From positions 318,447 to 382,446 of the forward strand of contig LM994626.1 of the NCBI GenBank assembly GCA_000752675.2: a stretch of 64,000 bases of DNA. The letters are read 5' to 3'. Under the pieces are notes generated by a model. The model saw only the letters and a list, made by a program, of their open reading frames with translations, was not told where the DNA came from and made no database searches. This DNA is from a bacterium OL-1. Lineage in GTDB: Bacteria; Actinomycetota; Coriobacteriia; Coriobacteriales; Atopobiaceae. How positions within the stretch are numbered: position 1 is the stretch's first letter; every line of letters starts with the position of its first letter. This document shows, piece after piece, positions 50,336-56,036 of the stretch. Position numbers and translations under genes: made by a program.

Positions 50336-51619
50336 TTAGCCCTCCGCGTAGATGCCTACAAGCTCCTGGAGCACGTCGACCATGGTCTCCAGCTCGCGCA
50401 CCGGCACGAACTCGGTCACGCCGTGAGCGTTGTGGTAACAGGCCGAGAGGTTAGCGCACGGCAGGCCGCGGAAGGAGAGCTGCGCACCGTCGGTGCCGCC
50501 GCGCATGGGAACCGTCCGCATGGTAACGCCGCAGGCGGCATACGCCCGACGCGCGGACTCGATGAGGTGCGCGTTCTCGGGGCGGGTGATGACCTCGGCC
50601 ATGTTGCGGTACTGGTCGCGGATCTCAATGGAGAGCACGGGTTGGCCGGCCGCCGCGGACGGGCGCAGCGCGTACTCCTCGTTCACCTGGGCCACGGCCG
50701 AGCGGAGCAGGTCCTTTCTTGCCTCAAAGCGGTCGCGGTCGTGGTCGCGGATGATGTAGTCCGCACGGGCATCCTCGCAGTTGCCCTCAATGCGCTCCAG
50801 GTAGAAGAAGCCCTCGCGGTCCTGCGTGAACTCCGGGCGATCCTGGGGCGGAATGAGCTGGTGCACGCGGAGCAGCGCCTCGGAGGCGTTGACCATCACG
50901 TCCTTCGCGGTGCCGGTGTGGACCGAGCGTCCGTTGGCGCGGATGGTCGCCTCGGCAGCGTTGAACGTCTCGTAGCAAAACTCGCCCAGGGGGCCGGCGT
51001 CGATGGTGTAGCCGTAGGCGGCACCTAGCGCGTCAAGGTCGAGCAGCGCCGCGCCATGGCCGATCTCCTCGTCAGGGACAAACGCCAGCGCGAGCGCCGG
51101 ATGCGGGATGGAGGGGTTCTCGGAAAGGCGTGCGAGAAGTGAGACGACCATGGCCACAGCGGCCTTGTCGTCTCCGCCGAGAAGCGACGTGCCGTCCGAG
51201 GTGACAAGATCCTCGCCAATGAGGTCTTTGAGCTCCGGGTTTGTGGCGGGGTCGAGGGCGACTTCGGCGCCGTCGCGGCCGCTGCCCAGGACAAGCCGTC
51301 CGCCCTCGTAGCGCTTGACCTGCGGGTGGACCGGGCTGCCATATGTCTGCCACGCGGTGTCGAGGTGGCAGCAGAACGCGAGCGCGGGGCGCTTCTCGGC
51401 ACCGGCGCTTGCGGGCCAATGGGCCGTGACGTAGGCGTGCTTGTCGAGCGTGACGTCTTGGGCGCCAAGGTCGCGCAGGTCAGCGGCAACGACGCGCGCC
51501 ATATCGAACTGGGCCGGGGTCGAGGGCACCGTTTGCGCGGTGCGCGGATCCGACTGCGAGGGAACCTCGCAATACCTCACGAACCTCTCGAGCACGTCAC
51601 TTGTCGCCTTGCGTCCCAT
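50336..51619 (-). CDS. pepT: Peptidase T (tripeptide aminopeptidase)
   Basis: A 427-residue M20B metallopeptidase that removes the N-terminal residue of tripeptides in the cytoplasm. The zinc ligands are visible: FCCHLDTAW (about residues 82-90), LLGGDDKAAVA (about 146-156) with the bridging Asp, PDEEIGHGA (about 180-188) with the catalytic Glu, and YTIDAG (about 200). C-terminal MRGGTDGAQLSFRGLPCANL completes the family signature. Start: ATG at 51619 after GAGAGG. It stands alone. Confidence 0.95.
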   Translation of the reverse strand: MGRKATSDVLERFVRYCEVPSQSDPRTAQTVPSTPAQFDMARVVAADLRDLGAQDVTLDKHAYVTAHWPASAGAEKRPALAFCCHLDTAWQTYGSPVHPQVKRYEGGRLVLGSGRDGAEVALDPATNPELKDLIGEDLVTSDGTSLLGGDDKAAVAMVVSLLARLSENPSIPHPALALAFVPDEEIGHGAALLDLDALGAAYGYTIDAGPLGEFCYETFNAAEATIRANGRSVHTGTAKDVMVNASEALLRVHQLIPPQDRPEFTQDREGFFYLERIEGNCEDARADYIIRDHDRDRFEARKDLLRSAVAQVNEEYALRPSAAAGQPVLSIEIRDQYRNMAEVITRPENAHLIESARRAYAACGVTMRTVPMRGGTDGAQLSFRGLPCANLSACYHNAHGVTEFVPVRELETMVDVLQELVGIYAEG

Positions 51620-51854: not shown

Positions 51855-51913
51855 GGGTTGCTGCCCGACCTTCCATAGGAAGGACGGCCCTGGCCGTGGT
51901 CGCTGCAGAAATC

Positions 51914-51961
51914 TTCGCTCGGGCGAGATTCTGACGCCCGAGGGCGCGTTACCCATGCAAT
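51914..51961. repeat. Family B array, left half split by insertion sequence
   Basis: CTCGGGCGAG/CTGACGCCCGAG hairpin followed by GGCGCGTTACCCATGCAAT, directly abutting the left terminal repeat of the composite IS. The right half resumes at 55954. Confidence 0.7.
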
Positions 51962-51988
51962 GGGGGTGCGGACGATTCCTTGGACGGC

Positions 51989-52372
51989 CTAGGCGGCCAT
52001 CCCCATAGACTCACGGTACTGCTTCGTGCTCATCCAGCCAAGCGACTCCTTGAGCCTCTCGTCGTTGTAGTAGGCGAGGTGGCCCTCCAGGGCGGACGCG
52101 AACCCCTCCAGCGTGACGCCCGACCAGTCCCGGTAGTAGAAGAACTCGTTCTTCATCGTGCCGAAGAAGCCCTCCATGCGGGAGTTGTCGGGCGAGCGCC
52201 CCTTCGCGGACGTGGAGCGGGCCACGCCGTTCTCCTCGCAGATGCGCACCCACCCCGGCCAGCGGTAGTGGCACCCGCGGTCGGCGTGGACCACCGTGAG
52301 CTCGCCGCCCTCGCGACCCGACAGCGCCTTGAGCAGCGAGGAGTTGGCGAGCTCCGCGTCGGGTGCATTCAG
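51989..52372 (-). pseudogene. IS3-family transposase OrfB, C-terminal remnant (outer element)
   Basis: About 127 residues of a DDE integrase core. VHADRGCHYRW holds the second catalytic Asp and DNSRMEGFFGTMKNE the catalytic Glu, followed by the usual YYNDERLKESLGWMSTKQYR end. The frame begins abruptly at about 52372 with PDAELANSSL; the first Asp and the N-terminal half are missing. Upstream sequence belongs to the inserted IS21-type element. Inactive. Confidence 0.85.
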
Positions 52373-52437
52373 TCAAGTAAAAGTCGACAGTTTGCTCTGT
52401 CGATTTCCCACACTTCGCTCGGGGCACGCCCGCACCC

Positions 52438-53196
52438 CTAGCTTCCGTTACCAGAGAGCATGAGCGCCTGGTCCATGCGGTGGCTCGTCCCGTTGAACTC
52501 GACCAGCCTGCTGTGGTGCACCACGCGGTCGATCATCGCCGCGGCGAGCTTGTCGTCGCCGAGGACCGTGCCCCACTTCCCGAACTCGATGTTGGTCGTG
52601 ATGACGAGGCTTCTCCTCTCGTAGCAGTCCGACACCACCTGGAAGAGCAGCCTCGCCCCGGCGACGTCGATCGGGACGTAGCCGAACTCGTCCAGGATCA
52701 CGAGGTCGGCGTTGGTGGCGTCCCTCAGCGCGCCGTCGAGCTTGCCGTCCGCGCGGGCGCGCTCCAGCTGCATAACCAGGCGCGCCGTCGAGTGGAACCG
52801 TACCGGGCGACCCATCGAGACGGCCCGTACGCCCATCGCCGTCGCGAGGTGGGTCTTGCCCCTCCCGGTCCTGCCGTGGAACACGAAGCCCTCGGCGGTG
52901 TCCAGGAAGGAGAGCGACTCGAGGTCGGCCGGCCCGTAGCCGTCGGGGAAGGCCACCTGCGAGTAGTCGTAGCCCTCGAACGACTTGACCTGCGGGAACC
53001 TGGCCCTGCGCATGAGGCGCTCCCTCCTGTGCACGTCGCGGCTCTCCAGCTCTGCGGACAGGAGCCTGTTGGCCGCGCGGACCTCGGCCGCCGTCGCTCC
53101 GTCCAGGAAGCCCCTCACGACGTCGCCAGATATGAAGAGCCTCCTCGCGTTCGCCGCCAGCTCCCCGTCGAGCGACGACCTCGCCGGCCTACCCAT
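52438..53196 (-). CDS. istB: IS21-family ATP-binding protein IstB
   Basis: A 252-residue AAA+ helper of the IS21 transposase. Walker A GRTGRGKTHLATAMG (about 102-116) and Walker B NADLVILDEFGYVPID (about 158-173) are intact, with the N-terminal SFEGYDYSQV segment typical of IstB. The ATG at 53196 overlaps the TAG of the istA C-terminal remnant, as in intact IS21 elements. The gene itself looks complete, but its transposase partner is broken by the 53240-54649 insertion. Confidence 0.88.
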   Translation of the reverse strand: MGRPARSSLDGELAANARRLFISGDVVRGFLDGATAAEVRAANRLLSAELESRDVHRRERLMRRARFPQVKSFEGYDYSQVAFPDGYGPADLESLSFLDTAEGFVFHGRTGRGKTHLATAMGVRAVSMGRPVRFHSTARLVMQLERARADGKLDGALRDATNADLVILDEFGYVPIDVAGARLLFQVVSDCYERRSLVITTNIEFGKWGTVLGDDKLAAAMIDRVVHHSRLVEFNGTSHRMDQALMLSGNGS

Positions 53197-53239
53197 CGGC
53201 GACCACCCCCGCCAGACGGTCGTACTCGGCGAGGTCGCC
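53197..53239 (-). pseudogene. istA C-terminal remnant
   Basis: Reading on the minus strand, GDLAEYDRLAGVVADG and a TAG that overlaps the istB ATG. This is the tail of the IS21 transposase, cut from its front part by the inner IS3 element. Joining the flanks gives a continuous frame (RAYE-GDLAEYD), but the total of about 270 residues is much shorter than normal IstA, so a deletion accompanied the insertion. Confidence 0.6.
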
Positions 53240-53279
53240 TGAGCCCTGTCAATATAATGGACAGCGGAGTCGCAGATTT

Positions 53280-54247
53280 CTATGCGGCCAGCATGGCTTC
53301 CGGATCGGCCTGGAGGGCACTCTCGAAGCGGTCGAAGAACTCCTGCATGGCCTCTGCCGGCACGCGGTCCCCGATGGACTCGTGCGGGCGGAAGCGGTTG
53401 TAATACGACTCGATGAACTCGATCGCCCCGTGCTTCGTCGTGGATGCATCCGACGGGCGCTCGTGGTGGTACCACTCGCTCTTGAGCGTCCCGAAGAACG
53501 ACTCCGCGACCGCATTGTCGTGGCGGCTGCCGGTGCGGCCCACGGAGAGCCTCACGTCGTGCGCTGCCGCCCAGGCGGCGAGCTCGGCGCTCGCGTGCTG
53601 GCTTCCGCGGTCGCTGTGGAACATGGCCCCTCCTGCGACATGGCCGCGCGAACGGGCCATCTCGAGGGCTGCGACCACGAGGCCTGCCCTCATGTTGTCC
53701 CGCATGCTCCAGCCGACGACCATGCGCGCGCACAGGTCTATGACCACGGCCAGGCAGATGAAGCCGCCCGTGGTCCTGAGATAGGTTATGTCGCCCACGA
53801 GCTTCGTGGTCGGGACGGGGCCCGGGAAGTCGCTCCCCATGAGGTCGGGCCGCGCGGGCGCATCCCTGTCCGGCACCGTCGTCCTCCTGGAGGCATTGGG
53901 GCAGATGCCGCGTATCCCCAGCTCGGACATGCATTTCCGGACGCGGTAGGGGGTCGTTCCCGCGAAGCGGCCGTACTTGGGGTCGCCCGTCAGCTTCGAC
54001 CAGGCCTTGCGGAGGCCGAAGCGCCTCTCGCTCGCGTCCCATGTCTCGATGATGGCCTCCTTGAGGGGGCCCCCTGGATCCTCCCCGCTGCCGCCCGCCT
54101 TCAGCCACCGGTAGAACCCCGACCTGCTCACGCCCAGCACCCGCGCCATCATCGAGACGCTGTAGTCCGCCTTCTCCTCCAGCATCAGCCGGAACCTGTC
54201 CTCCGTCAGAGGCTCCTGGCGAAGAAGGCTGCTGCTTTTTTTAGGGA
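53280..54247 (-). CDS. IS3-family transposase OrfB (inner element)
   Basis: The integrase half, read by -1 frameshifting from orfA at the A7 run. The N-terminal RFRLMLEEKADYSVSMMARV and the HTH_21-like SRSGFYRWLKAG lead into the rve core. Catalytic residues are in VGDITYLRT (Asp), FHSDRGSQHAS (Asp) and DNAVAESFFGTLKSE (Glu). YNRFRPHESIGDRVPAEAM closes the domain. All three catalytic residues are present, so the transposase is probably functional. The coordinates mark the frame from the slippage site, and no independent start with a good ribosome binding site was found. Confidence 0.85.
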
Positions 54248-54547
54248 CTCGTTCTCGCTCTCGAGCTCCCTGATGCGCCTCCTTGCCTCGTCGGGCTCCT
54301 TCTGCTCGTCGGTCCTGGCCTGGGTGACCTTTCCCGTCCTCCCGAACTTGATGACCCAGTCGTTGAGGGTCTTGTCGTTGATTCCGAGCTCTGCGGCGCA
54401 CTCCCTGATGCTCTTCTTCGGATCCGCCTCCCGGGCCCTCCTGTAGTACTCGACCGCCTCGAGCCGGTACTCCTCCGCACACTGTCTGGGAGCCTTCGCC
54501 TTGGCCCTGGACTCCGCCCTCTCGATCTCGCCTGCGCTCACTGACAT
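54206..54547 (-). CDS. IS3-family transposase OrfA (inner element)
   Basis: A 113-residue DNA-binding protein from the ATG at 54547 (GGAGCAGCGAG upstream). SIRECAAELGINDKTLNDWV (about residues 46-65) is the helix-turn-helix, followed by a leucine-zipper-like coiled coil (DEARRRIRELESENESLKKA). Near its end the sequence CTAAAAAAAGC contains seven A (54242-54236), the classical site for -1 frameshifting into orfB to make the OrfAB transposase. Confidence 0.88.
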   Translation of the reverse strand: MSVSAGEIERAESRAKAKAPRQCAEEYRLEAVEYYRRAREADPKKSIRECAAELGINDKTLNDWVIKFGRTGKVTQARTDEQKEPDEARRRIRELESENESLKKAAAFFARSL

Positions 54548-54646
54548 CTCGCTGCTCCAATCTGCTGGTGGTGATGGGAGGGCATATCTGCCGAGCATAC
54601 CGGCTGCAGGTTCCTGCCATCCCGCTGTCCACCAAAAGATTACGGC

Positions 54647-55402
54647 TCACTCGTAGGCCCTGAGGCGCGACAGGAAGCGGTTCGCGCTCTCGTCCTTGCC
54701 CTTGGTCTGCGGCGTCCTGGGCCGGCAGAGCGCGAGCTCGAAGCCGGCCTCGCGCGCGAAGGCGGCGACGCGGCCGTCCCGCGAGCGCCTCCCGTCGCCG
54801 CCGAGCGTCGCGACGGCCGACATGTTGTCCGTGAGCCACTGCCGCGGCACGCCGCCCAGCCAGCGGATGTTGTCCGCCATGCAGGCCAGCAGGTCGTCCC
54901 TGGTCCTGGTCGGGGACCGCACGAAGTAGTGCATCCGGGACCATCCGAGCGTCGAGGTGTACACGTCGAAGCGGTACCCGCGGCCGGAGCGGTCGTGCAT
55001 GGTGACGCCCTCCTTCCAGTCGAACTGCAGCTGCTCGCCGGGCGCCGTCTCGAACCTGGGGTGCGCGTCCGGCGCGCCGCCGCGCCCGACGGCTATGCCG
55101 CGCCCCCTCAGGTAGCTCGTGAAGGCGTTGTAGCCCGGGACCGGCGGCTCGTCGCCCGCGTGGCGCTCGAGCAGCAGCTCGTGGATGCCCTTGGCCGTGA
55201 CTCCCGGCAGCGCCGCCTTCTCCTCGATCTCGTCCCGGTAGCGGTCGAACCCGCTCGGCCGCCCGTGCCTGCCGTCGTCCGGCGAGGGCCCGCCCCCGTT
55301 CCAGTACTTCGAGACGGTGTGCCTGTCCACGCCGTACCTCCTAGCGACCTCCGAGAAGTTCGGCTTGACGCCGCACTCCCTGTCCGCGTTCAGCTCAGCC
55401 AT
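54647..55402 (-). pseudogene. istA: IS21-family transposase IstA, truncated by insertion
   Basis: About 251 residues from the ATG at 55402. FSEVARRYGVDRHTVSKYW (about 19-37) is the helix-turn-helix. FDWKEGV (first Asp, about 128) and WLTDNMSAVAT (second Asp, about 190) belong to the DDE core, and TKGKDESANRFLSRLRAYE carries the Glu. The frame then stops at TGA 54649-54647, which is the terminal TGA of the inner IS3 element. The remaining C-terminal domain is absent except for a short tail at 53197-53239. Non-functional. Confidence 0.85.
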
Positions 55403-55426
55403 GAGGTTCCTCTCCAAGGCCCCCAC

Positions 55427-55545
55427 CCCTCTCCGTCGTCGGTTCGGGGCTGAGCCTAGTTGGTGAAAGTGGTGAAACTACGCTGGTTTGGCTGGCGCAT
55501 TCGCGCTGGTCGGATTGGGGCGCGTATTGGTCAATCTGGTGAAAC
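55427..55545. other. IS21-type end region with TGGTGAAA repeats
   Basis: TTGGTGAAAG, GTGGTGAAAC and CTGGTGAAAC occur within about 85 bp upstream of istA. Multiple short terminal repeats are normal at the ends of IS21-family elements. The exact junction with the outer OrfA remnant, near 55545, is not resolved, and no matching repeats were found on the istB side. Confidence 0.4.
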
Positions 55546-55899
55546 CTAAGCTAGCGCTATCATCCGCACCACCCCGCCCGTCCCGGACAGCGCCGCCGCG
55601 CCGCCACGCCAGTACGCCTCGGCCCAAGCATACACGCTGCTGAGGCCGGAGACCCCGAGCCGCTCGGCCACGTCCCGCGCCGGGACGCCCGAGCGCATGA
55701 GCCCGACGGCCCTCATCCGGACGTCGAACGGGTACGGCTCGGCGTGCGAGGCGGGAGGGACGTGCCTGGGGTCCGCCCTCACCCAGTCGTGGAGGCGCTG
55801 CCTGGTCGGGTAGCCCAGCTCGTCGACGACCCCCTTCAGGCTCTTCCCGCTGGCGAAGAACCTCTCGACCGCCAGCTCCCTCTGCTCCCTCGAGTACAT
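55546..55899 (-). pseudogene. IS3-family OrfA, N-terminal part (outer element)
   Basis: A 117-residue frame from the ATG at 55899, with GGAGGTCCGC as ribosome binding site, 42 bp inside the right terminal repeat. Two helix-turn-helix units are visible: SLKGVVDELGYPTRQRLHDW (about 20-39) and PARDVAERLGVSGLSSVYAW (about 73-92). Elements with this double-HTH OrfA normally have a longer OrfA followed by OrfB. Here the frame ends at a TAG next to IS21-type sequence and the rest is missing. Confidence 0.8.
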
Positions 55900-55953
55900 G
55901 CGGACCTCCAGTCCCGGACCACCCCGTGGTCCAACTTCGAGTCCGCACCCCCA

Positions 55954-56036
55954 TCGCGTACGAAAGGGGCCTTCCGGCGCCGTTTTCTAGCCGGGGGGAG
56001 TTTCCGCAGCGTCGGCGACCAAAAGTAGCCCTCGGG
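55954..56036. repeat. Family B array, right half split by insertion sequence
   Basis: TCGCGTACGAAAGGGGCCTTCCGGCGCCG and a further GCCCTCGGGCGTC half. Placed after the left half (ends GCAAT at 51961), the junction reads GCAATTCGCG, matching GCAATTCGCA in the intact array at 36620-36630. The remainder of 56037-56250 shows GC-rich sequence without a gene. Confidence 0.7.

Follow-up and report, generated by a model that had tools for sequence, protein, structure and literature searches.

A layered array of insertion sequences in an Atopobiaceae genome that joins the opposite ends of two IS21 elements

Insertion sequences (IS) of the IS3 family are bounded by inverted ends, duplicate 3-5 bp of their target and produce OrfAB by a programmed -1 frameshift at the overlap of orfA and orfB. 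Elements of the IS21 family encode an integrase-type transposase (IstA) and an ATPase (IstB) between TG..CA ends. Some IS3-family elements, such as IS1397, ISKpn1 and ISPsy8, insert in large dispersed intergenic stem-loops, and PMC1525189 describes IS3-family elements targeting extragenic palindromes, as well as the unlike flanks that recombination or adjacent deletion leaves behind. In PMC11708052, IS-adjacent deletion and IS-IS recombination in the Lenski lines place an IS at a deletion junction without target duplication. Here, we analyzed a layered array of at least four such elements at positions 51962-55952 of a 64,000-nucleotide stretch of DNA (the window) from bacterium OL-1 (Atopobiaceae; assembly GCA_000752675.2, contig LM994626.1). 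This genome (G000; G and L numbers denote the genomes and loci compared) comprises 2.46 Mb in 10 contigs, and the array lies inside an 880-kb contig.

Sequence comparison resolves the array into an outer IS3-family element, two IS21 pieces (IS21-A on the left and IS21-B on the right) and an inner IS3-family element. The pieces share with the IS21 family the IstB ATPase, the integrase-type IstA, TG..CA ends and, in the intact relative of IS21-A, an overlap of istA and istB. In contrast to regular IS21 elements, both copies in the window are halves, and the pair that they form is a fusion of two elements. The inner element has the orfA and orfB of the IS3 family, an A7G run, an integrase core, TG..CA ends, a length of 1410 bp and, in its G116 relative, a 3-bp duplication, but in the window it lacks a duplication and its flanks come from two different elements. 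The outer family recalls IS1397, ISKpn1 and ISPsy8 in its IS3-type transposase and its insertion in large dispersed intergenic stem-loops; it differs from them in its ends (GGGGGTGCGGAC) and its actinobacterial hosts, and is likened to them by insertion sites, not by sequence. The Lenski lines (PMC11708052) likewise present an IS at a deletion junction without target duplication, whereas here the deletion would lie wholly inside a stack of other ISs, by a process that we infer and that was not observed. Judged by titles and abstract openings, none of the papers found on chimeric IS21 recombination dealt with such a case, and a literature search for the 12-bp end of the outer element returned no paper.

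Two unrelated IS21 elements within one outer insertion

The istA and istB of the array are the opposite ends of two unrelated IS21 elements. An original prediction, made from the window sequence, had assigned both genes to one IS21. Over 874 bases, the IS21-A piece is 98.3% identical to a relative in G115 (L011/L066) and 95.7% identical to one in G118 (L013/L067). The G115 relative spans 2420 bp up to a contig end (L066 1509-3928) and carries a 500-aa istA that overlaps istB; the window istA is only 24% identical to the istA of L011. The IS21-B piece (913 bases) matches two G120 copies (L064, L065) at 95.7-95.8% identity; these measure 2274 bp by their TG..CA ends and are 99.6% alike over the whole element. 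The IstA front of the window is 88.4% identical at the protein level to that of L012, where istA runs on into a different istB, and the istB genes of intact IS21-B relatives are only 36-39% like the window istB. The terminal repeats are also unlike (TGCATTCAGTCAAG.. in IS21-A versus TGATAGCGCTAGC.. in IS21-B): intact relatives of A and of B hold istA and istB between matching ends, whereas the A-B fusion of the window does not. The different partner genes and terminal repeats thus indicate that the istA and istB pieces come from two unrelated elements. The original proposal of a single IS21 that lost part of istA when the inner IS3 interrupted it agrees with the usual order and orientation of the two parts, but each part matches its own element, the two elements differ in partner genes and terminal repeats, and the A half holds the end of its own unrelated istA. 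We rejected this reading on the partner genes and terminal ends, and leave it next to no probability. Adjacent fragments of istA and istB are therefore no evidence of one IS21, which corrects a natural misreading. Since the ends of the two halves differ, they should not be able to move together, and the A-B pair, judged from its sequence, should not be a working unit.

We searched 140 genomes of the family for this arrangement. Outside G000, no listed match extends more than ~10 bases across one of the four junctions, and the longest of the matches listed there measures 44 bases (G054). A search of plasmids returned distant matches only (60-80% identity).

The outer element encloses all the others. 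GGGGGTGCGGAC starts at 51962 and its reverse complement GTCCGCACCCCC ends at 55952, in agreement with the perfect 12-bp ends described originally. As also described, the element is left as the front of OrfA and the tail of OrfB. Both fragments fit IS3 profiles (the OrfB tail matches positions 255-369 of the NCBIfam IS3 transposase profile) and align to residues 15-110 and 343-466, respectively, toward both ends of the 466-aa frames of L130 and L131. These intact relatives have the same long OrfA, a length of 1446 bp and the same perfect 12-bp ends (L131; L130 runs to a contig end), and the two fragments keep their order and orientation. The uninterrupted outer target is present at the same place in three species of the genus (G116, G119, G121), and compared with it only the dinucleotide AT is repeated in the window (left copy 51960-51961, right copy 55953-55954). 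In four other members of the genus (G115, G117, G118, G120), the flanking genes were matched and the intergenic target itself had no match. The contiguous flanks in G116, G119 and G121 indicate that the whole array lies within one outer insertion and argue against an origin of the outer fragments from two loci. Derivation of the OrfA and OrfB fragments from different elements is likewise unsupported, as single intact relatives carry both. The array thus occupies a single outer insertion site, between a presumptive M20-type peptidase gene and a putative suf gene cluster.

The true left end of IS21-A directly adjoins the outer OrfB fragment (52363/52364) and the true right end of IS21-B directly adjoins the outer OrfA fragment (55562/55563). 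In L129 (G120), the outer orfA continues uninterrupted across the equivalent of the second point, without IS21-B. These junctions indicate that A and B inserted directly into the outer IS3 and not into each other, so that the three-deep nesting of the original prediction gives way to four elements, two of which lie side by side in the outer one. The prediction was right that DNA of the host elements was lost, but not about how much. By alignment to intact relatives, ~0.65 kb is missing from the outer element (not 0.8 kb), ~1.54 kb from IS21-A, which kept its whole istB and only the last 49 bases of istA, and ~1.36 kb from IS21-B (not several hundred bases of istA). For the outer element, the 1446-bp L130 and L131 replaced L059-L063 (~1.3-1.38 kb) as the reference, since the latter have a different OrfA, to which the window OrfA has no match at E 1e-3; judged by the shorter L059-L062, the loss would be ~0.5 kb.

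The inner IS3 looks complete from its sequence, and its length of 1410 bp was correctly predicted. It is colinear end to end with a copy in G116 (90%, L068) and with copies in G052 (76%, L069 and L070); such full-length colinear matches exclude chance. Its imperfect terminal inverted repeats end in TG..CA, and TGAGCC..GGCTCA is kept in the G116 and G052 copies. The terminal TGA of the element does provide the istA stop, as the prediction held. In the window, the flanks of the inner IS3 are unlike (GCC on one side, CTC on the other), whereas L068 has CAC on both sides. A scan of genome contigs with the inner OrfB found nine loci and no second array.

A probable history and its alternatives

We consider the following history probable as a whole. 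An old IS3-family element would have inserted in a palindromic intergenic repeat; IS21-A would have entered its orfB and IS21-B its orfA, separately and in the same orientation; the inner IS3 would then have entered the stack; and one deletion of ~3.5 kb, bordering on the inner IS3, would have taken out A's right part and B's left part together with the middle of the outer element. What would remain is a fused remnant in which the inner IS3 stands between one half of A and one half of B. The comparisons show the four elements with their true ends, their fusion at the inner IS3 and the single outer insertion site; that one deletion was responsible, and by what means, is deduced from these. The relative order given by the original prediction (outer element, then IS21, then inner IS3) is retained. 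The deletion may have arisen by IS-adjacent deletion (intramolecular transposition) or by recombination between two copies of the inner IS3, two routes that are indistinguishable here. A single deletion with its edge at the inner IS3 would account for all the losses, in A, B and the outer element together (sum ~3.5 kb), and for the missing target duplication, none being expected if the two sides of the inner IS3 derive from separate places. Loss at each insertion, as had been proposed, is not required: several gaps in a nested array can all go back to one deletion. The array is an ordinary kind of genome decay and changes no general picture.

Several points weigh against this history. In the genomes searched, we found neither an intact element close to the outer one, so that the length lost from the latter is an estimate, nor an intermediate in which the outer element holds both A and B whole. 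G000 has no second copy of the inner IS3, and recombination between copies would therefore leave no present trace. Moreover, a duplication is likewise missing from L069 and L070, two of three relatives that match the inner IS3 cleanly over its full length. A missing duplication by itself is therefore weak evidence, and the argument is carried by the unlike parentage of the flanks. Finally, base 53238 is C in the window, whereas each of the four independent relatives of IS21-A has A (G115, G118, G039 and G048, with L014 and L072 counted once since they are the same place in G039). A deletion ending exactly at the IS would need a point change there.

This base is central to an alternative that we regard as unlikely while giving it some weight, in which A and B were first fused by deletion at a short common stretch, GTCG, and the inner IS3 entered, or was captured at, the break two bases away without target duplication. 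The window reads GAGGTCGCC before the IS and CTCG after it; the IS21-A relatives read GAGGTCGAC (4/4 independent), and the IS21-B relatives read GAAGTCGCC followed by CTCG (L064 and L065; L022 has these nine bases too). Positions 53238-53239, directly before the inner IS3, are the last of IS21-A and ambiguous in origin; they agree with B, whose sequence continues across the IS: its copies read GTCGCC/CTCG over the inner IS3 site. In PMC11708052, insertion of ISs into breaks during rearrangements, with no duplications, is proposed. Yet only one base is informative for this alternative and the match spans just 4 bp; a single substitution explains the data equally well. That the inner IS3 was captured at the A/B break with its four-base match, leaving in nature a trace of the break-insertion route that PMC11708052 puts forward, appears to us slightly more doubtful still.

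Module exchange between IS21 elements is conceivable, and a natural hybrid with an A-type istB and a B-type istA could have moved as a unit and later been hit by the inner IS3. Nothing direct speaks for such a hybrid, and its ends would be unmatched, with the fusion point inside two istA genes. Among the matches listed from the 140 family genomes outside G000, none joins the two parts, and a simple insertion would not give an outer element with ~0.65 kb missing and no duplication at the outer edges of the pair; we find this origin highly improbable. A chimeric assembly, with two loci joined through a collapsed repeat, might be suspected because G000 is in 10 contigs and a related IS21-A copy ends a contig in G115. 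This reading has a very small chance of being correct, given that the G000 assembly contains no other close copy of the inner IS3, IS21-A or IS21-B, that the outer flanks rejoin exactly in three relatives and that the site lies inside a large contig.

Stem-loop targets of the outer family

The sequence of the G116 empty site has 39 matches in G000, two of which are the window site itself, and the outer element's target is thus a dispersed intergenic repeat. We rejoined 80-base insertion sites for 17 full-length relatives of the outer element, and 12 of them fold better than shuffles at z <= -3; the G116 empty site also folds (z -4.6). As controls, 80-mers of the window reached this threshold in 9 of 250 cases when drawn at random and in 21 of 200 cases when centred outside long ORFs. 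Twelve of the 17 sites belong to a single genome (G057), and several of these lie in copies of the same palindrome; L169, L174, L175, L060 and L131 fall below the threshold, and in L179 the main hairpin is beside the site. Large intergenic stem-loops were noted at the sites of the G057 copies (L169-L179, L062) and of L059, L061 and L063, mostly with 3-bp duplications. Across the 17 relatives, the target duplication is 3 bp in 12, 4 bp in two and absent in three, compared with 2 bp in the window copy. Like IS1397-type elements, the outer family seems to favour large intergenic stem-loops as targets, a specificity that we infer from the sites. This preference offers a practical starting point for studying how actinobacterial IS3 elements choose their targets.

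Features of the array and related loci

Table 1. Features of the array and of its target, in window coordinates (aa, amino acids)
Feature	Position	Strand	Basis
Left half of outer-element target	51909-51961		Dispersed palindromic intergenic repeat; contiguous with 55953 onward in G116, G119, G121
Outer IS3, OrfB tail, 402 bp, with terminal inverted repeat GGGGGTGCGGAC	51962-52363	minus	Residues 343-466 of the 466-residue L130/L131 transposase frame
IS21-A left end: terminal repeat TGCATTCAGTCAAG.., complete istB, last 49 bp of own istA	52364-53239	minus	Matches in G115, G118
istB of IS21-A, intact, 252 aa	52438-53196	minus	Pfam IstB_IS21 E 9e-62; 99.2% identical to istB of L011
3' end of IS21-A istA, overlapping istB	53189-53237	minus	Aligns to L011 1501-1549, end of 500-aa istA
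Inner IS3, apparently complete, 1410 bp, ends TGAGCC..GGCTCA, no target duplication	53240-54649	minus	Full-length copies in G116, G052
Inner IS3 orfB, integrase core, open	53280-54233	minus	rve E 7e-21; NCBIfam transpos_IS3 247.9 bits versus cut-off 160
Inner IS3 orfA, 130 aa	54206-54598	minus	HTH_Tnp_1
A7 run then G, between inner orfA and orfB	54236-54242	minus	Sequence; putative -1 frameshift site
Inner-IS3 terminal TGA, closing truncated istA frame	54647-54649	minus	Sequence and reading frames
IS21-B right end: first 259 istA codons and terminal repeat (reverse complement TGATAGCGCTAGC)	54650-55562	minus	Two G120 copies
Outer IS3, OrfA front, 390 bp, with terminal repeat	55563-55952	minus	90.8% identical to L129 (G120)
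Right half of outer-element palindromic target	55953-56020		Flank comparison with G116, G119, G121; dispersed-repeat matches

The genes flanking the array, whose families we name from their sequences, are presumably an M20-type peptidase frame at 50336-51619 (minus) and a sufC-like ABC gene from 56515 (plus).

Some of the related loci are themselves rearranged. In G115, the first IS21-A end occurs twice, joined by a single N (L066 1443-1510, G115:C5), in what looks like an assembly gap. In another genus, a relative of IS21-A is split by two inserts (L072, G039:C46:3000-9000): one, which carries a B-like istA, interrupts its istA, and the other, with an IS3-type orfB, lies close to the end of the element. 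One of the whole IS21-B copies of G120 lies inside the apparent istA of another IS21, with a further B-like istA (74%) nearby (L064, G120:C2:936500-943500). The closest relative of the outer OrfA (L129, G120:C1:1136500-1141500) is broken by a frameshift near residue 23, and its OrfA is followed by an inner-type IS3 that is 74% identical to the window copy.

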